Part shown: one piece after another, positions 1-10,101 of the stretch
How the letters are laid out: the number at the start of each line of letters is the position of its first letter
How positions within the stretch are numbered: the first letter of the stretch is position 1
NCBI RefSeq assembly: GCF_030341905.1
Contig: NZ_JATAAF010000003.1
Coordinates: 62,001 to 126,000 of the forward strand
DNA: 64,000 nucleotides
From: Porticoccus sp. W117
GTDB taxonomy: Bacteria > Pseudomonadota > Gammaproteobacteria > Pseudomonadales > Porticoccaceae
Reading direction: 5' to 3'
Made by a program: the position numbers and the translations under genes
The notes under the pieces: model-generated
What the model was told of the DNA's origin: nothing
Databases searched by the model: none
The model's input: only the letters and a program-made list of their open reading frames with translations

Positions 1-1
1 C

Positions 2-232
2 TATTACCTGATGGTGCTGTTGCTGCTGGCTTCTGGCCTGGAATTTGTTACCGCCTGGTCGGCCACTGCCGCTTGCCTCAATAACCTGGGGCCAGGGCTC
101 GGTGAAGTAGCGGTGCATTACGGCGATATCAACAGTTTTGCCAAGTGGGTACTGTGTGGCGGCATGCTGCTGGGGCGCTTGGAAATCTTTACCTTGATTG
201 TCATGTGCCTGCCGACGTTCTGGCGGAAATAA
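2..232 (+). CDS. trkH: TrkH-family potassium uptake protein, C-terminal fragment
   Basis: The reading frame is already open at the left edge, so only the last 76 or so residues of a membrane protein are present. They contain the pattern typical of the last pore repeat of TrkH/TrkI potassium channels: AWSATAACLNNLGPGLGEV, followed by AKWVLCGGMLLGRLEIFTL and a short basic C-terminus. In the family, TrkH is the channel subunit and works with the cytoplasmic NAD-binding TrkA protein. The start, earlier membrane segments and operon partners lie outside the window. The family call rests on strong motif resemblance. TrkH versus its paralogue TrkI cannot be decided from this fragment. Confidence 0.85.
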   Translation, partial: YYLMVLLLLASGLEFVTAWSATAACLNNLGPGLGEVAVHYGDINSFAKWVLCGGMLLGRLEIFTLIVMCLPTFWRK

Positions 233-238
233 ATGCCC

Positions 239-280
239 CGTCATTGCGAACCCCGCAGGAGCGCGGCAATCCAGTGGCTT
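239..280. repeat. REP-like intergenic repeat (TCATTGCGA ... GCGGCAATCC type), partial copy
   Basis: A copy of the GTCATTGCGA...GCGGCAATCC sequence also found at 31666-31760, 34431-34527 and, in part, at 50694-50721. It directly follows the trkH stop codon. The rest of the gap to position 510 holds a short hairpin (GGCCAGC at 366-372 with GCTGGCC at 379-385) and no supportable gene. Confidence 0.6.
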
Positions 281-510
281 CGATTTTTGCCAGGCGTAAG
301 CCGGGTTTTTGCTGCTGTCACACGCCACTTTCTTTAATTATGAGGGGCCATCCCTGGGGGCTCGAGGCCAGCTTCCATGCTGGCCACGGTCACAGCAGCA
401 AGTATCCGACTTATGCTCTTCAAATTAAGGCGTAACGGTTGGGGGAGTGCATGTGAGGAACTTTTACCCACTCCACCAGCCGAAAACCTACTATCAAACA
501 GGAGTGCCTT

Positions 511-987
511 ATGAGCAGCGATCAACCGCGCCCGCCGCTACCACCTTTTACAAGAGAAACCGCCATGCAAAAAGTACGTATGGCGGAAGATGGCTGGAAC
601 AACCGCGACCCGGAAAAGGTAGCGTTGGCTTACACCGCCGACAGTCAGTGGCGCAATCGCGCGGAATTTCCCAAAGGCCGGGAGCAGATTATCGAATTCC
701 TCAAACGCAAGTGGGCCAAAGAACAGGAGTACCGCCTGATAAAAGAATTGTGGGCCTTTGAGGGCAATCGCATCGCGGTGCGTTTTGCCTACGAGTGGCA
801 CGATGATGCGGGCAACTGGTATCGTTCCTACGGCAACGAAAACTGGGAGTTTGATGAAAATGGTTTAATGGCAAAGCGTTATGCCAGTATTAATGATTTG
901 CCCATTGATAAAGATGACCGAAAATTTCATTGGCCCCAGGGCAGGCGCCCGGATGATCATCCGGGGTTGAGCGAACTGGGGTTGTAA
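511..987 (+). CDS. DUF1348 / SnoaL-like NTF2-fold protein
   Basis: A 158-residue soluble protein preceded by AGGAG at about 500. The length and sequence match the DUF1348 branch of the NTF2/SnoaL fold: [22 protein letters not shown] near the N-terminus, [13 protein letters not shown] in the middle, and a W/Y/F-rich core ([19 protein letters not shown]). Proteins of this fold are small cone-shaped hydrolases, isomerases or ligand binders. DUF1348 members have no established reaction. There is no signal peptide, so it is probably cytoplasmic. It stands alone between trkH and a MITE-like element, and context gives no substrate. Confidence 0.8.
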
Positions 988-989
988 GC

Positions 990-1259
990 TAGGGGGTGTT
1001 AACAACTAATTGGTCACTACTGTTGCCTCTGAAAAGGCGCCTATCTAGGCGCAAGGAGAGTAGTTTGGTCATTTCAAATGAGCGACGAGCAACAACGAGG
1101 GGCGCCTTTTCAGGGGCAACCCGAAGGGCTGGGCTCCTTTTTCGCCCCAGCGGCGTTATCGGTCGCTTATGTAGAATAACTACACTGCACTCCCTCTGCC
1201 TTGCTGGAGCAAAAAATGAACTCCAGCAGTAGCGATCAATTAGTTGTTAACACCCCCTA
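990..1259. mobile_element. MITE-like element with about 31-bp terminal inverted repeats and a TA target duplication
   Basis: The left end (991-1021, starting AGGGGGTGTTAACAACTAAT) and right end (1228-1258, ending ATTAGTTGTTAACACCCCCT) are inverted copies matching at 29 of 31 positions. The outermost 22 bp are perfect. Taking the ends as GGGGG/CCCCC, the element is flanked by TA at 990-991 and 1258-1259, which is the target duplication of IS630/Tc1-mariner transposons. A second inverted repeat lies inside (1022-1041 against 1101-1120, 19 of 20 matching), and a small hairpin at 1203-1227 (GCTGGAG...CTCCAGC). No transposase frame is present. Assigning it to IS630 rests only on the TA and the size. 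Confidence 0.8.
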
Positions 1260-1284
1260 ACCCTGCAAAACCGTCGGAGGGTAA

Positions 1285-1719
1285 ATGCAACTCACGCCAT
1301 TTCATATAGCTGTTCAGGTGCGCGATATTGCCGAAGCGCGGGATTTCTATGGGGTAAAAATGGGGCTGGCGGAGGGGCGTAGCTGTGATAGCTGGATTGA
1401 CTTCAATATGTTCGGCCATCAGTTTGTTACTCACCTGAACCCGGCCATTGGCAAAACAGGTTGTGTGCCTAACGTGTCGAATGGCGTAGATGGCCACGGG
1501 GTGCCAGTGCCCCACTGCGGAGTCATTATGCCGTTTGACCATTGGCAGGATTTTGCCCGCAGAGTTGAGGGTTTTATCGATAAGTTTATTGTTGAACCCT
1601 ATATTCGCTTTGAGGGCCAGCCCGGTGAGCAGGGCACCCTATTTTTTCTCGATCCATCCGGCAACGCCCTGGAGTTCAAAGGCTTTAAAGATATCGAATC
1701 CGATCTGTTTGCTACATAA
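1285..1719 (+). CDS. VOC-family (glyoxalase/dioxygenase-fold) protein
   Basis: A 144-residue protein with a good ribosome site (GGAGG at about 1276) just after the MITE-like element. It begins LTPFHIAVQVRDIAEARDFY, the first beta strand and helix of a vicinal-oxygen-chelate module. It contains FGHQFVTHLNP in the middle and ends with FFLDPSGNALEFKGF, in which Glu is the usual last metal ligand. VOC proteins use a metal to rearrange or cleave small molecules (glyoxalase I, ring-cleavage dioxygenases, resistance proteins). The substrate cannot be read from the sequence. The next gene starts 8 bp downstream and is probably cotranscribed. Confidence 0.82.
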   Translation: MQLTPFHIAVQVRDIAEARDFYGVKMGLAEGRSCDSWIDFNMFGHQFVTHLNPAIGKTGCVPNVSNGVDGHGVPVPHCGVIMPFDHWQDFARRVEGFIDKFIVEPYIRFEGQPGEQGTLFFLDPSGNALEFKGFKDIESDLFAT

Positions 1720-1726
1720 TGGCTGA

Positions 1727-2665
1727 ATGAATCAGCTGCTTATCCTTTCAAATGACGCTGACGAATACGCGGAAAAACTGCGCTGCAGAAATCTTCCTGA
1801 CCTGGAAATTTTCACTGCCAGTCACAGCGATCAAGCACAGCAATTCGCCAGCCACGCAAATATTATTCTGGGCACACCAGCGTTAATTGCCCCTCTTCTC
1901 CACCGTGCGCCAAACCTTCAATGGGTGCAATCTTCATTTGCCGGGGTCGAGCCATTTTGCGCGCCCGAGCTGCGCAGGGATTACCTGCTGACAGGCGTAA
2001 AGGGAATTTTCGGCCCGTTGATGAGCGAGTATGTTTTTGCCTACATACTGGCGTTTGAACGCAACCTGTTTGCCACTCGAAAAAACCAGTGTGAAAAGCG
2101 CTGGCACAGTATTCCCTATCGTTCGCTGGGTTCACTGACTATCGGCATTTGCGGGCTTGGTTCCATCGGTCAGCACATTGCGAAAACGGCGGCACATTTC
2201 AACATGACGGTGTTGGGGCTAAGTCGTTCTGCAAAACAGATTGTTGGTGTAGAAAAAGTGTTTCCGCCAGAGGTGATTTGCGATTTGTCTCAGCAGGTGG
2301 ATTACCTGGTTTCTGCGCTGCCCAATACCTCAGAAACCCAGGGTATTATCAACGATGAGGTATTTAAGGCTCTCGGCCCTTCAGCTGTATTTATAAATGT
2401 GGGGCGCGGGGCGACGGTGGATGAACCTGCATTGATCGACGCGCTTCACAGAAAAGTCATTCGTGGTGCGGTTTTGGATGTATTCCAAACCGAACCCCTG
2501 CCGCAAGACAATCCGCTCTGGTGCCTGGATAGTGCATTTGTTACTCCCCATAATTCGGCAGTTACTTTTCCCGCGGACATAACCGAACTGTTTTTCGAAA
2601 ACTATAAACGCTTTCAGGCAGGACAGCGATTGCAGCATGTAATCGATTTTTCCAGAGAATATTAA
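1727..2665 (+). CDS. D-2-hydroxyacid dehydrogenase
   Basis: A 312-residue NAD(P)-dependent oxidoreductase that interconverts D-2-hydroxyacids and 2-ketoacids. The Rossmann motif GLGSIG is at residues 143-148. The catalytic triad of the family is in place: Arg228 in INVGRGA, Glu256 in FQTEPLP and His275 in VTPHNSA. The length is that of the short glyoxylate/hydroxypyruvate-reductase-like (GhrA) branch, without the ACT domain of SerA. It lies 8 bp after the VOC gene and 20 bp before the Nramp-like gene, suggesting one transcript. The substrate is undetermined. Confidence 0.88.
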   Translation: MNQLLILSNDADEYAEKLRCRNLPDLEIFTASHSDQAQQFASHANIILGTPALIAPLLHRAPNLQWVQSSFAGVEPFCAPELRRDYLLTGVKGIFGPLMSEYVFAYILAFERNLFATRKNQCEKRWHSIPYRSLGSLTIGICGLGSIGQHIAKTAAHFNMTVLGLSRSAKQIVGVEKVFPPEVICDLSQQVDYLVSALPNTSETQGIINDEVFKALGPSAVFINVGRGATVDEPALIDALHRKVIRGAVLDVFQTEPLPQDNPLWCLDSAFVTPHNSAVTFPADITELFFENYKRFQAGQRLQHVIDFSREY

Positions 2666-2685
2666 GAATAAAAACAAGGATTGCC

Positions 2686-3903
2686 ATGTTTAACAAACTT
2701 CGCAACCTGGGCCCCGGCGTTCTGGTGACTGCCGCCTTTATTGGGCCCGGCACCGTTGCCGCCTGTACGGTCGCAGGCGCCAGCTTTGGCTACGTACTAT
2801 TGTGGGCGCTGCTGTTCGCGACCCTGGCTACTATTATTCTGCAGGAAATGTCGGCGCGCCTTGGCACCATTACCCAAAAAGGCATGGGCGAGGTACTGCT
2901 CCACAGTCTGCAACATTCACCGCTCAAATGGCCGTTGTTTATTTTGGTGTTGCTCGCCCTGTACGCCGGTAATTCCGCTTACGAAGGCGGTAATCTGGCG
3001 GGAGCGGCGTTGGGTCTCGAAGCCATTTTTGGCAGTTCGCCGCTGGTGTTTAACAGTGCGGTGGTTGCACTGACACTGCTAGGGGGAACGCTGCTGTTGC
3101 GAGGCAGCTATCGGCAGATTGAACACGTGCTGATTGCCTTGGTGTTGCTGATGGGTATTGCCTTTATTGTCACCTTCTTTGTGGTTGGCCCGTCGTTGGC
3201 GGATATAGCCAAAGGGTTATTTTCACCGCAGATTCCAGAAGGCAGTTTGCTGGCAGTGATCGCACTGATCGGTACTACCGTAGTGCCCTACAATTTATTT
3301 CTGCATGCCTCCGCTGCCAAGGCGCGTTGGCAGGGGCAAAAAGATTTGACCGAAGCCCGCAGTGACGCGGTGATATCCATCGGCCTCGGTGGTCTGATTG
3401 CCATACTGATTGTATCCACTGCTGCTGCCAGCCTGTTTGCCAACCAGATCAGCGTTAACAGTGCCGCCGATATGGCGGTGCAGTTCGAACCGCTGTTCGG
3501 GCCTTTCTCAAAATACCTGCTGGGTATTGGCCTGTTTGCCGCTGGATTAAGCAGCACCATCACCGCGCCCCTGGCTACCGGATATGCGGTGGCAGAAATT
3601 CTGCAATTAAAAGGTGGCGCCAGTGGCAAGGGCTTCCGTGTTATTGCTATCAGTGTGTTAGTGATTGGAGCGGCTCTGGCACTTACTGGCATTAAGCCCA
3701 TTAAAATTATCCTGCTGGCGCAATTTGCCAATGGACTGTTATTACCCATTGTTGCCGGTTTCCTGCTCTACGCCATGAATCGCAAACAACTGCTGGGGGA
3801 ATACGCCAATGGTTGGCCGGCCAATACCCTGGGTATTGGGGTGGTATTGCTGACCGCTGGCTTGGGGGCAAGGATGATTGCCAAGGGGTTGGGGGTGATG
3901 TGA
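2686..3903 (+). CDS. Nramp-family metal transporter with a non-canonical metal site
   Basis: A 405-residue integral membrane protein with about 11 hydrophobic helices in the Nramp (LeuT-fold) pattern. It starts at ATG with an AAGGA site. In classical Mn/Fe Nramp proteins the metal is held by Asp and Asn of the helix-1 motif DPGN and by Met of the helix-6 motif MPH. Here helix 1 reads GPGT (residues 20-23) and helix 6 reads VPYN (200-203), so all three side-chain ligands are replaced. The surrounding scaffold is intact (PGVLVTAAFI, GNLAGAALGLE, LFLHASAAKARW). The fold assignment is firm. The transported ion is unknown and probably not that of MntH. Confidence 0.85.
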   Translation: MFNKLRNLGPGVLVTAAFIGPGTVAACTVAGASFGYVLLWALLFATLATIILQEMSARLGTITQKGMGEVLLHSLQHSPLKWPLFILVLLALYAGNSAYEGGNLAGAALGLEAIFGSSPLVFNSAVVALTLLGGTLLLRGSYRQIEHVLIALVLLMGIAFIVTFFVVGPSLADIAKGLFSPQIPEGSLLAVIALIGTTVVPYNLFLHASAAKARWQGQKDLTEARSDAVISIGLGGLIAILIVSTAAASLFANQISVNSAADMAVQFEPLFGPFSKYLLGIGLFAAGLSSTITAPLATGYAVAEILQLKGGASGKGFRVIAISVLVIGAALALTGIKPIKIILLAQFANGLLLPIVAGFLLYAMNRKQLLGEYANGWPANTLGIGVVLLTAGLGARMIAKGLGVM

Positions 3904-3935
3904 ATATGGACAATTTTATCTAGAGCAGTTTGCCT

Positions 3936-4100
3936 ATGTACCATTGGGATGATCGTGGACTAATCTTTATCGTGGCTGCCGCTATTTTGTGGGTATTGCT
4001 AAATAGGGTTGATAAAGACTACCACAAAAGAAAAAAGGATATTATCAAACGTCGATTCCAGAAAAAGTCCAAGTCAGAATCAGGCAATAGTGATTCTTAG
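3936..4100 (+). CDS. Small single-helix membrane protein, unrecognised
   Basis: An open frame of 54 codons starting at ATG 3936, with a weak AGAG ribosome site about 10 bp upstream. It encodes one hydrophobic segment (LIFIVAAAILWVLL, residues 9-22) followed by a highly basic, charged tail (KDYHKRKKDIIKRRFQKKSK). That layout suggests a small inner-membrane protein with a cytoplasmic basic tail. It begins 33 bp after the Nramp-like gene. No family recognised. The composition looks coding, but the frame is short. Confidence 0.4.
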   Translation: MYHWDDRGLIFIVAAAILWVLLNRVDKDYHKRKKDIIKRRFQKKSKSESGNSDS

Positions 4101-4366
4101 TAGTGGCTGAAAGTAGAAATTCCTCATCTTAAACTGATAAGCCTTTGTTTTTACTTGGCATAATCATGTATTAAGATTTTCCCCGCCATAACCCAAGGCG
4201 CCATCCCTGATTGAGTCAACAGTCGTCACGTGATGGCGACTATCTTTGTGCTATAACTTTTTCGTACTCACGCCCTATTGCCGGTAAAAAAACCGGGGGT
4301 AGATGCCTCCTTGGCGTGTCTAGTGTTTACACGTAGTTTATTTTTGCCCGGGAAGCGCTCACATCC
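4101..4366. other. Intergenic region upstream of the sigma-factor gene
   Basis: A 266-bp AT-rich stretch between the small membrane ORF and the ECF sigma gene. It has no convincing frame. It contains a short inverted repeat (CCGGT...ACCGG near 4280-4295) with no T run, and presumably the promoter of the sigma/FecR cassette. No clear -35/-10 pair could be assigned. Confidence 0.4.
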
Positions 4367-4951
4367 ATGTATCAGAGGACAAAGTTGGCCAAGTTCCTGT
4401 CCAAACCGTCGGAGGCAAAACAGCGCATGCTGGATCGCCTTTATGCTGACCACGGAGCGGCATTGCGCTCATTTGTTGGTTTGCGGATGGGTGGTGGTCA
4501 TAGCGATGTCGATGACGTTGTTCAGGATGTTTTCACCAAGCTGGCCCAGATGGATGATCTGAAAGGGCGCCTGCCGTCTGCGGAGCGGTCAGTAAGAGCC
4601 TACATCTTTCAGATGGCCAGCAACCACATCGTTAATATGTACCGCTATAAGCGCGTACGCCGGCAGCATCTCGAGCGGGAGCAGCCCCACGCCCTGGAAT
4701 CTTCCGGAGATGAACAGAGCCCGGAACGCATCGTATTGGCGCAAAGGGAGCTGGAGAGTATTCGTGAGACGATCGAGAAGCTGCCGCTGCCGTGCCGCCA
4801 GGCGTTTGTTCTCAACCGTTTTAAACAAAAGACTTATGTTGAGGTGGCGGAGTATATGGGTGTTTCCGTCAAGCAGGTAGAAAAGTATATGCAAAAATCG
4901 CTGATTGCGATTCGTCGAGCCGTCAAGCGGCTCAGGGAGGCAGAAAAGTGA
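4367..4951 (+). CDS. ECF RNA polymerase sigma factor, FecI-like
   Basis: A 194-residue sigma-70 family protein of ECF size. Region 2 covers roughly residues 20-95 (HSDVDDVVQDVFTKLAQMDD, then AYIFQMASNHIVNMYR, matching the core-binding and -10 recognition helices). Region 4 covers about 125-182 (LPLPCRQAFVLNRFKQKTY with the helix-turn-helix VEVAEYMGVSVKQVEKYMQ). The gene directly precedes fecR, with GTGA overlapping its stop. This is the organisation of iron-starvation-type surface signalling, in which the sigma factor is released when a TonB receptor binds its ligand. The target is most likely the receptor gene at 6120. A second in-frame ATG at 4430 would cut into the N-terminus and is less likely. 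Confidence 0.92.
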   Translation: MYQRTKLAKFLSKPSEAKQRMLDRLYADHGAALRSFVGLRMGGGHSDVDDVVQDVFTKLAQMDDLKGRLPSAERSVRAYIFQMASNHIVNMYRYKRVRRQHLEREQPHALESSGDEQSPERIVLAQRELESIRETIEKLPLPCRQAFVLNRFKQKTYVEVAEYMGVSVKQVEKYMQKSLIAIRRAVKRLREAEK

Positions 4952-6024
4952 TTGCCAGGTATGAAGAGCGCCGTGCAGCGGCGGATGCGGGCCTGCTGTT
5001 GTACGGAGCCCCCAGTGACGCTGATCTCGCCCGAATGGAAAAGGCCAAGTCAGAATCTGAAGAGTACGCCATGTACTTGCAGCAGTTCCTGGATGTGAGT
5101 GATGCATTGCAATCAGAAGAACTGCTGTTGCCGCAGTTGGATGAGGGCATCAAAGAAGACGCTCAAACCGCCCGACATGTAGGTCGCGCTGCAAAAGGTT
5201 GGCTCAAATACGCATCGGTCGCCGCTGTTCTGTTGGTAATGGTTGCGGTTCTGCAGTGGCCTGCTGGTACCGGAAGCGATGCAGATATGGCGCGCTATGT
5301 CACTCGCATAGGCGAGCAAAAATCGGTCGAGCTGAAGGATGGATCCCTGGTAACTCTCAATACGGGTACTGAGTTGATCGCCGCCATGGCCGATGATCAG
5401 CGACACATTACTCTCAATCGGGGTGAGGCTTTCTTCTCGGTGGCAGAAGATTCCTCCAGGCCCTTCACGGTAACGGTGGGTGGCCGTTCAGTCACGGTTC
5501 TCGGTACGGCATTTAATGTCAGGAAGGGCAATGACGGTTTTGTGTTGGCGGTGAGTGAGGGTCAAGTGGTTGTTCACTCTGAGTATGAACCGGTCAGTTT
5601 CAAAGCCGAGGAAATGAACCTGACTGTTGGCGAAATCGCCACAGTGAGTGGCATGCAGCAGCGGCGCTTTAAAGCTGGAATGGCGGCAGAGTTTAATGCC
5701 AGCGAACAGCAACTGATTGCCTACCGGCCGGAAGATATGAAAGACCTGACTAATTGGCAGTCGGGCGTGCTGCGCTTTGAGGGCGTGCCGCTGTCAAAGG
5801 TTGTCAAAGAACTGAATCGCTACTCCGCCAAAAAAATATTGGTTTATGATCGCGAGCTCCTCGCAATTGAAGTGTTTGCTTCAGTAAGGGTTGACGATTT
5901 ATCAGGCGCCCTGAATGTGCTGGATGCGGCCTTTCCCATTGATGTTATTCACCAATTTGATCAGATCGTGCTGGTTTCGTCGAAAGGCGACAGAGCTTCC
6001 ACAAGAAAAAATAAAAAATTGTAG
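4948..6024 (+). CDS. FecR-type anti-sigma / signal transducer
   Basis: A 358-residue inner-membrane protein starting at GTG, preceded by GGGAGG and overlapping the sigma stop by 4 bp. The N-terminal cytoplasmic part (1-85) should bind the sigma factor. A single helix (about 87-105, ASVAAVLLVMVAVLQW) crosses the membrane. The periplasmic FecR domain follows (about 112-215: EQKSVELKDGSLVTLNTGTE, ITLNRGEAFFSV, GTAFNVRK). The C-terminus (about 280-345) has the secretin/TonB short-domain-like fold expected to contact the receptor. FecR relays occupancy of the TonB receptor to the sigma factor. The order sigma-FecR-receptor supports this strongly. Confidence 0.92.
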   Translation: MIARYEERRAAADAGLLLYGAPSDADLARMEKAKSESEEYAMYLQQFLDVSDALQSEELLLPQLDEGIKEDAQTARHVGRAAKGWLKYASVAAVLLVMVAVLQWPAGTGSDADMARYVTRIGEQKSVELKDGSLVTLNTGTELIAAMADDQRHITLNRGEAFFSVAEDSSRPFTVTVGGRSVTVLGTAFNVRKGNDGFVLAVSEGQVVVHSEYEPVSFKAEEMNLTVGEIATVSGMQQRRFKAGMAAEFNASEQQLIAYRPEDMKDLTNWQSGVLRFEGVPLSKVVKELNRYSAKKILVYDRELLAIEVFASVRVDDLSGALNVLDAAFPIDVIHQFDQIVLVSSKGDRASTRKNKKL

Positions 6025-6119
6025 GGTGAAATGAAGACCTGGCTGTTTAGTGTTGGAGGCTTGGCGACATCCAGGTATTCAAAACTAACACTCAATAATT
6101 ATAGGGTAGCGCAGGACTT

Positions 6120-8780
6120 ATGAAATTCACTTCTCAGACTCACAGAAAAAAGAAGCTCGGCGCCTGTATAAGTGGTGTGCTGGCCATGCTGGTGACAGCG
6201 GGTGCCCATGCCGAAATGCGGGAAGTTGCGGTAAGCATTGACAGTAAAAGTGCCAGCAAGGCCATTCTGGATCTCGCCGAACAAACCGGCAGCAACATTG
6301 CGTTCCCACCAGAAGTGGCCAGAAAACTTGTATTTCCAAAAGTTGAGGGGCAGTACACCGTTGTTGAAGCGCTTGAGGTAATGCTTGAGGGCACAAATCT
6401 GGTGTTCAGAGTATTGTCCGACAGCTCCATTGTTGTTGAAGAAGGCAATAGTGGCGAGGTATCAACAGGAGCCGACGAAGAGGCAGAGGAAGAAATTGTT
6501 ATTTTCGGTGAGCGCATCGTCACCCGAAACCGCACCGATAATATAGAACCAACACTGTCTTACGATTCCGGCTATTTTGAACGCTTCGAGCCACTTACCT
6601 TGAACGACATGCTCAAACGTGTGCCCGGTGTATTTTTTAACCGCTTGTTTAATTTGCCTTCAAACCCCCAGGCTTCATCAAACGCAGTTCCAGACAACAC
6701 TTTGCCAAGGTTCCGAAATTTGGACGAAGAGTTTTCACAGATTCTGATCAACGGCCGTCGCATCGCCGGTATCGATTTTGGTAGTGGCCAGAGCTTTTTG
6801 GCCAATATTCCCGCTGAGTCTGTGGATGAAATTCAGGTTATTCGCAGCCCTTCGGCAGATATCGACAGTTCTGGTGTAGGCCTGACTCTGAATGTGATCC
6901 TTAAAGATGGCTTTAGCTTAAACAACAGAACCTGGCGTTTGGGTGCGATTTCTTACGATGGTGAATTGAAGGGACTTGGTTCTGTCAATATCGCAGGCAC
7001 TAACAATTTGTTTAACTACAATCTCAGTGCAACTTACCAGGACAGACTCAGGGGCGGTACTGTCAATGATTTTACGGAATCAAATGATGATGATCTGGGC
7101 ATTACATCATTTACCGACAGCGTGACAAACTCTGAAGAGCTGAGTAAAGATAAAAACCTGCTTGCAAGTATTGACTTTGCTGTTAGCGAGAATTCTATCT
7201 TAAAAATTGACGGTAGATACTTTTTGACGGATGAACGTTCCTTTGCAGATGAAAGAGGAAGCAACTTAGACGGCGATGGTGAATTTGAGAGTTTTATAGG
7301 GAATACAAGCGCTTCTGATAGATCGTCAAAAAACACCGCTTTGACCCTTACATATCTTTATGAGGGTACTGATTTTACTTGGGAATCTGTCGCCGGCATT
7401 GATGAAACCGACTTTACCAACTCAAACAATTCCACCACATTAAGCTTTATTAGTGGTGAATCCTATACGGACAGCATTGATAACGTAAACGGCGAGGGCC
7501 GCGATATACTGTTTAATAACCATTTCTCCTGGGACTTAAGTGATGCTCAGCAGCTGAGATTTGGCGCTGATATCAGCAAAATATCCCAAGATGCCTTTAA
7601 TGCCACCCAGTTCTTTGCTGACCCAGCTGATGACGAAGATTTTGGTTTCAATTCTAACGCTCTAGACGATTCACGAGATACGGATCGAGTGGACTTCTTT
7701 GCGGTTTACGAGCTAAACCTGGCGGACAATATCAACTTGCAGCTGGGCGGCCGTTATGAAACTACAGAGTATCAAGCCAGTTCGCCAACTTCCCTGGCCA
7801 TTGACGGCGCCGTGGATTTTGATTTTGACGTTTTCAGTGATGGTGTGCCAAGAAATTTTACAGCTAAAGTAACGGGCTTTAATCCAAATGCCCACCTGAG
7901 ATGGTCGTTTGCCGAAGGGCATGATCTGCGATTCTCTGTAGCGCAAACGGTGCGTCGGCCAACTCTGGATGAACTGGATCCTCAAATTCAAATCTCATTT
8001 TTCGACAGACTTTTCCCCGATGACCCTACTGAGCCGGTTGACGTAATTTTTGGAAACGAAAATCTTGAAAATGAAGAATCCTTGGGCTTCGATATTGGTT
8101 ATGACTGGCGCTTCGAAGGTGGCAATTTAGGATTGAATGTTTACAGTCGAAAAATTGATAACGCTATCTTCGATCGGACTCAGAATGTAGATCAATTTCT
8201 GCAGATATTGACTCCTGATGAGCGCGATGAATTCCAAAGGTTTCGTACTTTTCTTTCTGAAAATGATTTCACCGATGATATCCGGGTCAGCACTTCTGCA
8301 AATACTGAGGCAGAAACTACAGCCCGGGGCGTTGAAATGGATTTAAGTGTGCCGGTCACCTTTATCAGTGATACCGCCAATTTTTACGTCAATGCCACCT
8401 ATGCCAGAAACGAAACCACCAATGAGGCTATATCACGGTCTGCAGCCATCAATATTTCCTACGATCAGGTGATTCCGTCGATAGGTTTGACCTATGGCTT
8501 TAGTATCAACAAAGTCACTAAAGTTGAGTTGCAACGTATAAACCCTGTCAACTTGGATTTTGAAAGTGAAGATGCAGATCTGGATCCGAATCTTGAAGTG
8601 TTTGTGGAAAAAACCTTCAGTGAAGACTTGCTTGCCCGCCTGACAGTTGAAAACTTGCTGGATGCGAAAGAGGATCGCGTGGATATAGATAATATTCCTG
8701 ACTTTGGCCTTAGAACGCGTTCTGTAAGTACATCCGATACTTCACCAAGAATCCTATTAACCCTGCGAGGCCAGTTTTAA
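6120..8780 (+). CDS. TonB-dependent receptor with N-terminal signalling (STN) domain
   Basis: An 886-residue outer-membrane transporter with AGGA just upstream. The signal peptide ends near AHA (residue 31). An STN domain follows (about 35-108: VAVSIDSKSASKAILDLAEQ, later YTVVEALEVMLEGTNL), which marks receptors that signal through FecR. A Glu-rich linker precedes the plug (about 140-260: LNDMLKRVPGVFFNRL, ILINGRRIAGIDFGS, ESVDEIQVIRSPSADI). The rest is a 22-strand barrel ending in Phe (LTLRGQF). The plug/barrel family is not one I can link to a substrate. It differs from typical siderophore receptors in its Asp-rich barrel loops. A T-rich hairpin terminator follows. Confidence 0.9.
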   Translation: MKFTSQTHRKKKLGACISGVLAMLVTAGAHAEMREVAVSIDSKSASKAILDLAEQTGSNIAFPPEVARKLVFPKVEGQYTVVEALEVMLEGTNLVFRVLSDSSIVVEEGNSGEVSTGADEEAEEEIVIFGERIVTRNRTDNIEPTLSYDSGYFERFEPLTLNDMLKRVPGVFFNRLFNLPSNPQASSNAVPDNTLPRFRNLDEEFSQILINGRRIAGIDFGSGQSFLANIPAESVDEIQVIRSPSADIDSSGVGLTLNVILKDGFSLNNRTWRLGAISYDGELKGLGSVNIAGTNNLFNYNLSATYQDRLRGGTVNDFTESNDDDLGITSFTDSVTNSEELSKDKNLLASIDFAVSENSILKIDGRYFLTDERSFADERGSNLDGDGEFESFIGNTSASDRSSKNTALTLTYLYEGTDFTWESVAGIDETDFTNSNNSTTLSFISGESYTDSIDNVNGEGRDILFNNHFSWDLSDAQQLRFGADISKISQDAFNATQFFADPADDEDFGFNSNALDDSRDTDRVDFFAVYELNLADNINLQLGGRYETTEYQASSPTSLAIDGAVDFDFDVFSDGVPRNFTAKVTGFNPNAHLRWSFAEGHDLRFSVAQTVRRPTLDELDPQIQISFFDRLFPDDPTEPVDVIFGNENLENEESLGFDIGYDWRFEGGNLGLNVYSRKIDNAIFDRTQNVDQFLQILTPDERDEFQRFRTFLSENDFTDDIRVSTSANTEAETTARGVEMDLSVPVTFISDTANFYVNATYARNETTNEAISRSAAINISYDQVIPSIGLTYGFSINKVTKVELQRINPVNLDFESEDADLDPNLEVFVEKTFSEDLLARLTVENLLDAKEDRVDIDNIPDFGLRTRSVSTSDTSPRILLTLRGQF

Positions 8781-8795
8781 TATTTTTTAAGTATG

Positions 8796-8837
8796 GCTCC
8801 CGATAGCTATATCGGGAGCTATTTTTTTATTTTTTTT
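8796..8837 (+). terminator. Rho-independent terminator after the TonB receptor gene
   Basis: GCTCCCGATA (8796-8805) pairs with TATCGGGAGC (8810-8819) around a GCTA loop, followed by a long T-rich run to 8837. It ends the sigma/FecR/receptor transcript, partly or fully, just before the thioredoxin gene. Confidence 0.85.
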
Positions 8838-8850
8838 GGAGGGATTTATT

Positions 8851-10101
8851 ATGAAAATTTTTTGTTCGTTACTGATGTTGTTAATCGGTACGCCAGCGAT
8901 GGCCGGTGGTATCAACTTTTTCCAGGGCAGTTTTGATGAAGCGCTGGAAGAGGCCAAAAAATCCAACAAGCTACTGTTTGTTGACGCCTATGCCGACTGG
9001 TGTGGTCCCTGTAAGACTATGGAAAAAACCGTCTTTGTTCGTGAAGAAGTAGGCGAATTGTTTAACGACCTGTTTATCAACTACAAGCTGGATATTGAAG
9101 ACGAGGATCAAAACGGCCCTGAGATTTCTGATAAGTACGGTGTTGAAGTTTTGCCAACATACTTGTTTGTTGACAGTTCGGGCGATCTGGTTAGCAAAAA
9201 AGTCGGTGCCATGAGTACAGATACTTTTATGGCGACTGCCGGTGCGGTGGTTGGCAGGGGTGGCAGTGAGCAGCTATGTAAAGCCTACGAAAGTGGTGAT
9301 CGCAGCATTGACTCTTTCCTTAGTTGTCATGCAAAGAAGACGATCGATGCACAAGCACTTATGGAGCAAGGCGATGATTCCGCATTAGTTGCCCTCGACG
9401 AGGAATACAATAAGTACTACGACTCACTGTCGAAGGAGCAGCTGCTCAGCAAGGACGGCTTCCGCCTGATCACTAACCAGGCGATGCTTAGTCGGGGCAC
9501 AACACCAGTAGAGTTCATGGTGGATAACTACCAGCAATTTGCCAACCTTGTCGACCCCAAATTATTGGCTACCATTGCTGTTGAGGCTAATAAGAACGGT
9601 ATTCTTTTTGGCTCATTTCAAGATCAGGATAGCGCCAATCAGTGGGTAGAGGATATTCGTGGAACATTGGCTTCAGCCTATAAGTTGGCTGCGCCGAATG
9701 ATAAAACTATTTACCAGCGGTCGAAGCTCAGCGTTGACGCCTATGGAAGTATGATGGAAAAAAACTGGGGTGGTTTTGTCGACGCGAAAGTGGCCCAGGC
9801 GCAATTGCTGGAGGATAAAGCAGAGCAGCAGGCCGCATTGGAAGAAATTTCCAGAGAGATGCTGAGTTTCGGTTGCGAGGACAAAGAGGCCTTCAAATCA
9901 GTTTTGGTGTATGCCAAACAGGGCTGGCAGAATAGTGGAAACTTTGATTCGGCACTTCATTATGCCGGGCTACTGAAAGCGGTTGGGGATAGTGAGAAAT
10001 CGAAAAAAATGCTTTCAAAAGCGGAAAAAATGATTGAGCTGGAGTCAGATACAAAGCTGAAGGAAACCATGCAACAGCAGCTTGCTGAAGCCAATATTTG
10101 A
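8851..10101 (+). CDS. Secreted thioredoxin-fold protein with large C-terminal helical region
   Basis: 416 residues. The start is placed at ATG 8851 because GGAGGG sits 7 bp upstream and a signal peptide follows at once (MKIFCSLLMLLIGTPAMAGG). A thioredoxin domain covers about residues 25-135, with the redox motif WCGPC at 50-54 and the cis-Pro region VEVLPTYLFVDSSG. It resembles the C-terminal domain of DsbD and thioredoxin_7 proteins. The remaining 280 residues are charged and helical, with no recognised domain and four more Cys (two near 136-155). It probably acts as a periplasmic disulfide reductase or isomerase. It lies right after the receptor of the FecIR cassette, separated by a terminator that may be leaky. 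Confidence 0.82.
   Translation: MKIFCSLLMLLIGTPAMAGGINFFQGSFDEALEEAKKSNKLLFVDAYADWCGPCKTMEKTVFVREEVGELFNDLFINYKLDIEDEDQNGPEISDKYGVEVLPTYLFVDSSGDLVSKKVGAMSTDTFMATAGAVVGRGGSEQLCKAYESGDRSIDSFLSCHAKKTIDAQALMEQGDDSALVALDEEYNKYYDSLSKEQLLSKDGFRLITNQAMLSRGTTPVEFMVDNYQQFANLVDPKLLATIAVEANKNGILFGSFQDQDSANQWVEDIRGTLASAYKLAAPNDKTIYQRSKLSVDAYGSMMEKNWGGFVDAKVAQAQLLEDKAEQQAALEEISREMLSFGCEDKEAFKSVLVYAKQGWQNSGNFDSALHYAGLLKAVGDSEKSKKMLSKAEKMIELESDTKLKETMQQQLAEANI

Follow-up and report, generated by a model that had tools for sequence, protein, structure and literature searches.

A conserved GPGT/VPY site in an Nramp-like protein of Porticoccus sp. W117 and its proposed role in 5-oxoproline import

What does a transporter of the Nramp family carry when all four side chains of its metal site have been replaced? 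This question is raised by an open reading frame of the window, by which we mean the whole stretch of 64,000 nucleotides of Porticoccus sp. W117 DNA analysed here. The frame begins with ATG and encodes 405 amino acids. A first-pass annotation, made from the sequence alone, had read it as an Nramp scaffold without the canonical metal-binding residues, likely to serve a different ion or substrate. The gene and the motifs on which this question turns are the following:

2686..3903, + strand: Nramp-like transporter of the PF01566 'orphan outgroup' with GPGT/VPY motifs, proposed 5-oxoproline importer (Pfam, alignment, tree, model)
2743-2754, + strand: TM1 break motif GPGT, residues 20-23, replacing DPGN (alignment, AlphaFold2 model, conservation)
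2968..3015, + strand: TM3 stretch G95-Y99-G102-N103-G106-G110 (conservation in the 59-sequence alignment)
3277..3294, + strand: TM6 break motif T198-V-V200-P-Y202-N203, replacing A-x-M-P-H (alignment, model, conservation)

The Nramp profile of Pfam (PF01566) matches the protein with 292.8 bits against a gathering cut-off of 29.8, and query residues 24-376 cover profile positions 1-356 of 357. In the HMMER alignment to DraNramp (8e5s), D-P-G-N corresponds to G20-P-G-T23 and M-P-H to V200-P-Y202, the latter encoded at window positions 3283-3291. Gly, Thr, Val, and Tyr thus stand where DraNramp has the Asp, Asn, Met, and His that form its metal site, and the canonical Slc11/Nramp site, formed by DPGN in TM1 and MPH in TM6, is absent, with GPGT and VPY in its place. 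Both motif changes and the loss of Asp, Asn, and Met had been noted in the first-pass annotation; the alignment bears them out and adds the His to the list. The TM10 Gln of DraNramp is kept as Q346. Both MntH models score below their cut-offs (NF001923, 168.6 of 430 bits; TIGR01197, 117.1 of 272.5 bits), and the broader NF037982 model passes with 100.7 bits against 50.

The replaced motifs are a shared property of many relatives. Across an alignment of 59 sequences, the window protein included, G20, P21, G22, N103, V200, Y202, N203, H207, and Q346 occur in 59 of 59, as do the TM3 glycines G95, G102, G106, and G110. Position 23 is T in 56 sequences and S in 3, P201 is found in 57, and residue 99 is Y in 51 and F in 8. 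Because they are near-invariant across these sequences, GPGT and VPY reflect neither chance nor decay. A decayed Nramp or pseudogene is ruled out by the intact frame together with the motifs conserved among the 59 relatives.

An AlphaFold2 model of the protein, computed with the 59 aligned sequences as input (mean pLDDT 88.3, pTM 0.89), breaks TM1 at residues 19-20 and TM6 at 200-202, so that the predicted helix breaks fall at GPGT and VPY. The model superimposes on DraNramp 6c3i with a Z-score of 49.2 (2.3 Å over 378 residues), on EleNRMT 7qji with 48.5 (2.4 Å over 384 residues), and on BfraNramp with 46.7; in Foldseek, EleNRMT 7qia ranks first among the solved relatives. The protein therefore shares with canonical MntH/Nramp proteins the predicted fold, the TM10 Gln, and the general helix pattern, but has neither their DPGN nor their MPH. 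The APC carriers AdiC (Z 31.1, 4.0 Å over 366 residues) and ApcT are among the next neighbours after the Nramp chains, but share only about 11-16% identity with it and belong to another Pfam family. That the rest of the Nramp fold is preserved, as proposed in the first pass, is consistent with both the Pfam score and the model, the latter resembling an undamaged carrier of LeuT fold whose pocket is altered.

A group with such residues has been described before. In Cellier's division of PF01566 (PMC10606218), Slc11 stands beside NRMT and an 'orphan' outgroup, and this outgroup is also treated as separate from NRMT in PMC9606685. The outgroup residues introduced into Slc11 models in PMC10606218 comprise D to G and N to T in helix 1, A to T, M to V, and H to Y in helix 6, and A to Y and G to N in helix 3, where a six-mutation set reads GYGNGG. 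The window protein carries the corresponding G20, T23, T198, V200, Y202, Y99, and N103 and thus shares the named substitutions, with the helix-3 Y and N four residues apart. The letters of its TM3 stretch follow the outgroup order GYGNGG, a match in order rather than an alignment of the glycine positions to those of PMC10606218. A figure legend in PMC12873925 places B. subtilis MntG in a 'G-motif 3' group and calls the Nramp-related groups other than this and the NRMT-like one, among which the orphan outgroup would fall, entirely uncharacterised.

In a quick tree of 98 rows, rooted on the canonical rows, built without bootstrap, and with long branches that make its deep order untrustworthy, 61 rows with GPG[T/S] and V[P/T]Y lie on one side of a branch with an SH-aLRT value of 96. 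The remaining rows are 8 canonical, 12 NRMT-like, 5 DDDPSG, 4 GTGSV, 4 GAGD, and 2 PxpT/MumT-type sequences, together with the single rows L038 and L002. On grounds of its residues and of a branch apart from the canonical, NRMT-like, and PxpT/MumT-type rows, the window protein is a member of the already known orphan outgroup, a group that the first-pass annotation had missed. An NRMT-type Mg transporter was rejected, since the NRMT-like rows cluster apart in this 98-row tree. EleNRMT and the NRMT Mg transporters likewise do without DPGN and MPH, but the NRMT-like rows have motifs of the NDAGG/APWM kind. Row L038 (35% identity), with a GPGS / T-L-P-P-N variant, joins no main clade firmly and may represent a further substrate type.

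The passages on the orphan outgroup in these papers assign it no function; the substrate proposed here comes from gene context. Seven aligned members served as the query against 84,980 species genomes, and we analysed the best 80 of at least 591 confirmed stretches. Five of the 80 loci fell outside the motif filter in the clustering of neighbours and are included in the enzyme and distance counts; all distances refer to open frames taken from stop to stop, without start calls. Clustering of the neighbours in these best 80 of at least 591 loci gave PxpA, PxpB, and PxpC as the three dominant families. A 5-oxoprolinase-type enzyme is present in the fetched DNA of 62 of the best 80 loci (50 Pxp and 12 fusion enzymes), and lies within 250 bp of the transporter in 59. 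Of these close loci, 47 have PxpA downstream in the same orientation as the transporter, and 12 have the fusion enzyme (10 on the same strand, 2 divergent). In three further linked loci the enzyme is PxpA, lying 270 bp and 1,650 bp downstream in two and divergent at 2.9 kb in the third.

With one representative taken per cluster, PxpA (NF003814) and PxpB (TIGR00370) score above their cut-offs, and the PxpC-like representative stays below them (TIGR00724, 209.6 of 230.2 bits; NF045499, 178.4 of 500). The fusion enzyme, of about 1,200 residues, combines the Pfam domains Hydantoinase_A and Hydantoinase_B; members of its family open the rings of 5-oxoproline, hydantoin, or further lactams. The solved structure nearest to it carries the annotation N-methylhydantoinase, and its scores against the NCBIfam models for caprolactamase and acetophenone carboxylase fall far short of the cut-offs. 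Along the tree, at least five changes of enzyme type are needed to account for the 38 linked rows. In Shewanella ulleungensis, the source of the nearest relative among the best 80 of at least 591 (68% identity), the fusion enzyme is encoded 45 bp upstream of the transporter.

The same neighbourhood appears beyond these loci. An oxoprolinase sequence lies within 1.5 kb in 6 of 11 clade members from Actinomycetota, and on haloarchaeal plasmids HyuA-HyuB follows directly downstream in 7 of the 9 loci looked at; the pair is missing in Natrononativus and in Halobellus, where the locus is near the record end. The adjacency therefore spans two unrelated enzyme types of the 5-oxoprolinase families in bacteria and HyuA-HyuB in most of the haloarchaeal loci seen. 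The same 1.5 kb test, applied to 50 Nramp-related loci outside the clade, with canonical and NRMT-like proteins represented, gave no oxoprolinase. It gave none either in the window's family and class, where it covered 29 distinct clade loci, the window's own included (30 rows, of which L001 and L004 are both the window's own locus, and L028 is partial). On a Pseudoalteromonas plasmid, no gene annotated as oxoprolinase lies within 5 kb of a clade member of 45% identity. Among the best 80 of at least 591 loci, 18 are without a linked enzyme; 13 of these genomes encode PxpA at another place, and of the five left, 4 have a Hydantoinase_B gene. The resulting genome-level presence in 79 of the best 80 means little, because PxpA occurs in 79 and Hydantoinase_B in 74 of 112 family genomes anyway.

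Two further features of these loci may be recorded. The haloarchaeal operon (L228, L238-L242, L244) is conserved as a CopG-type regulator, the clade transporter, HyuA, and HyuB, followed in 4 of 7 cases (Halorussus, Haladaptatus, Halocatena, and Haloarcula litorea) by a gene of the Asp/Glu-racemase family. A gene for DUF2891 (PF11199) occurs at 25 of the 80 related loci (L063-L142; best 80 of at least 591), mostly from Flavobacteriaceae by record title and often directly upstream of the transporter. Since the copy read (L113:13773-14897) begins like a secreted protein, DUF2891 may supply substrate in the periplasm.

Because all four metal side chains are absent and oxoprolinase genes form the context, an organic substrate is favoured for the clade. 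5-Oxo-L-proline (pyroglutamate) is proposed since it is a substrate that the unrelated partners, PxpABC and the fusion enzyme, can have in common. We infer, with a probability of about 0.68, that the window protein, acting as a secondary transporter of Nramp/LeuT fold, brings in 5-oxo-L-proline for a PxpABC enzyme encoded elsewhere in the genome. The first-pass expectation of a different ion or substrate would then hold in its main sense: the site is replaced across a whole clade, and the commonest context is 5-oxoprolinase rather than metal homeostasis. As to whether the entire orphan outgroup, bacterial and haloarchaeal, forms a family of 5-oxoproline transporters, we lean slightly towards yes.

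According to this proposal, 5-oxo-L-proline would enter the cell through the window transporter and would be turned into glutamate by the cell's PxpABC, the genes of which are unlinked. The lactam acid would be held by G-P-G-T/S in helix 1, V-P-Y-N in TM6, and the Y/N pair of TM3, where Nramps hold their metal. In APC amino-acid transporters, a glycine-rich break in helix 1 binds carboxylates; by analogy, the carboxylate of 5-oxoproline may rest on the exposed helix-1 backbone, and the ring of the lactam may lie close to TM3 and TM6. Transport would presumably proceed by alternating access with some coupling ion.

The closest functional analogue appears to be PxpT of Corynebacterium glutamicum, a sequence-distinct protein reported, with complementation, to be needed for growth on 5-oxoproline, which PxpABC converts to glutamate by hydrolysis (PMC13274462). 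The same source reports YcsG of Bacillus subtilis (MntG) as necessary for the use of 5-oxoproline as nitrogen source. Within the open-licence PMC literature, as judged from search listings, we found no paper that links the orphan-outgroup clade to 5-oxoproline. Among the open-licence matches, a link between the Nramp family and 5-oxoproline appears only in PMC13274462 and PMC10448178; those on pyroglutamate transport also include a binding-protein system of Bordetella (PMC12344293) and a stress study in Sphingomonas (PMC4219479).

PxpT, YcsG, and MumT of Acinetobacter are also related to PF01566 and encoded beside pxpABC-type genes, and an integrative model of YcsG (9a52) matches the fold of the window protein with Z 41.1. 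In our comparison, two representatives chosen by gene context, L226 of L. plantarum and L224 of P. mirabilis, stood in for PxpT, YcsG, and MumT. Their TM1 reads AVGPGFLTQT or AIGPGFITQT and their TM6 GGTVGGYI, and they form a separate long branch with 26-28% identity to the window protein. The motif GPGF in TM1, which we take to be that of YcsG and PxpT, was seen here only in L226 and L224. Assignment of the window protein to the PxpT/YcsG type (TM1 [AV]-[IV]-GPGF) was rejected on account of this identity and the separate branch of the two representatives. The L. plantarum PxpT-like query returned nothing from 396 Actinomycetota genomes at E 1e-30, an uninformative result, and no match in a PDB sequence search.

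One alternative is that a related small cyclic amide, such as hydantoin, N-methylhydantoin, or D-5-oxoproline, is carried instead, or that the substrate varies by subclade and 5-oxoproline is one of several. The fusion enzyme aligns best with an N-methylhydantoinase structure and is the linked enzyme in the tree rows nearest to the window protein. Hydantoins or other lactams could also be carried because four of the seven haloarchaeal HyuA-HyuB operons add an Asp/Glu-racemase-family gene. However, PxpA, whose family is named for 5-oxoproline alone, is directly downstream in 47 of the 80 loci (best of at least 591), and the window's own genome encodes PxpABC and no Hydantoinase_B protein, so that we regard a different cyclic amide as unlikely.

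A divalent-metal importer for Mn or Mg with a non-canonical site would explain the oxoprolinase link through the metal need of ATP-dependent enzymes. Precedents exist: NRMT proteins are reported to carry Mg and Mn without DPGN or MPH (PMC12873925, PMC4072509), and Mn import has been reported for the distantly related MumT (PMC5050338) and argued for YcsG, the earlier 5-oxoproline result for which may be a polar effect (PMC10448178). These reports on YcsG and MumT conflict with the 5-oxoproline reports, and metal transport in those relatives is therefore contested. Residue 100 in TM3, an E in 50 of the 59 aligned sequences and a Q in 8, would also suit a metal, and the window's genome, lacking a canonical MntH, leaves room for such a Mn importer. 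Against this reading stand the exchange of all four metal-site residues for Gly, Thr, Val, and Tyr, the fact that the unrelated partner enzymes have a substrate class but no special metal in common, and the complete lack of oxoprolinase neighbours at the 50 non-clade Nramp-related loci. Furthermore, no metal riboswitch was found in window positions 1-9000, where a search for the M-box, a riboswitch that precedes some NRMT genes, gave nothing at E up to 0.5 and the riboswitch search returned only a sub-threshold ctRNA match. Taken together, metal import by this protein seems improbable to us.

Compared with the loci of its relatives, the immediate surroundings of the window gene offer little guidance. 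Three genes precede the transporter:

1727..2665, + strand: D-2-hydroxyacid dehydrogenase, ending 20 bp before the transporter ATG (open reading frame and domain search)
1285..1719, + strand: VOC/glyoxalase-superfamily protein, 7 bp ahead of the dehydrogenase (open reading frame and domain search)
511..987, + strand: DUF1348/SnoaL-like protein, kept with the VOC and dehydrogenase genes in a sibling species (open reading frame and domain search)

The transporter does lie downstream of the dehydrogenase, as stated in the first pass (2665 to the ATG at 2686), and because only 20 bp separate them the two genes are probably co-transcribed. The dehydrogenase had also been taken there as a functional hint, which turned out to be uninformative. 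In G095, a genome of the same genus in a single contig, the DUF1348-VOC-dehydrogenase trio stands in the same order with a dehydrogenase of 68% identity; no such transporter follows it, and a search of that whole genome gave only a distant, partial match (E 5.5e-11). Of 28 further clade loci from the same family and class, just 1 has a homologue of any of the four nearest window genes in its flanks (up to 1.5 kb), namely the VOC protein at L036, and 7 of 8 listed window neighbours are singletons in the clustering, the FecR gene being the exception. Since the trio occurs without the transporter and neighbours are rarely shared, the dehydrogenase is a poor guide to function and, judging from gene order, is incidental to that of the transporter. 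A hydroxyacid or glyoxylate substrate, suggested by this neighbour, was rejected because the neighbour is not conserved.

An organic-acid carrier tied to the dehydrogenase, for which the 20 bp spacing and probable co-transcription would speak, or an exporter or leak valve for excess 5-oxoproline, is very hard to sustain. The dehydrogenase context is absent in the relatives examined, the G095 trio has no transporter, and the analogous PxpT is reported to support growth on external 5-oxoproline (PMC13274462). Further downstream, positions 4367-10101 encode an ECF sigma factor, a FecR-like protein, a large TonB receptor, and a thioredoxin-like protein, and resemble a separate surface-signalling unit; the STN match of the receptor is weak and does not reach the cut-off.

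In the preferred reading, 5-oxoproline import, the enzyme is encoded elsewhere in the genome, and the window's own genome has pxpA, pxpB, and pxpC in a row on a different contig from the transporter. In this genome we found no Hydantoinase_B protein, no canonical MntH, and two PF01566 proteins, the strong match at 2686-3903 and a weak one at 51.7 bits. The weak protein, L002 (G000 C12, 1396-2718), is very divergent, with GSGE in TM1 and the longest end branch of the tree. The clade transporter is patchily distributed, being present by identity in 26 of 112 family genomes, two of them with partial genes (G025, G055), and in 5 of 369 genomes of the class sample. PxpA occurs in 23 of the 26 family genomes with the transporter versus 56 of the 86 without (Fisher p = 0.027). 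Within the main genus, PxpA shows no association with the transporter (20 of 23 genomes with it, 24 of 27 without, p = 1), and the co-occurrence lends weak support to 5-oxoproline.

The first-pass annotation had suggested a phylogeny and a structure prediction as checks; run here, these set the clade apart from both the canonical and the NRMT-like magnesium rows (98-row tree) and placed the predicted helix breaks at the altered motifs. The clade was already known as an outgroup, and what is added here is the proposed link to 5-oxoproline and a PxpT-like role outside the PxpT/MumT-type rows. Clade members in the plasmid records looked at are annotated 'Nramp family divalent metal transporter'. 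If pyroglutamate, which forms spontaneously from glutamine and glutamate (PMC13274462), is indeed what they carry, this name would mislead work on metal homeostasis and hide a widespread uptake route. The outgroup that roots Nramp evolution would then gain a functional identity, and the metal site may derive from a carboxylate-binding GPG[T/S]/VPY site through changes of Gly to Asp, Thr to Asn, Val to Met, and Tyr to His, an origin testable by few mutations. Together with the separate PxpT lineage, it would also imply that PF01566 proteins commonly carry amino-acid-like substrates other than metals.

A minor observation concerns the Proteus mirabilis representative L224. It lies in a mum-like operon together with a PxpA-like gene, a fused PxpB/PxpC-like protein, and a biotin carboxylase, and the naming of such mum-like operons after urea carboxylase and allophanate hydrolase may merit a re-reading in terms of 5-oxoproline.
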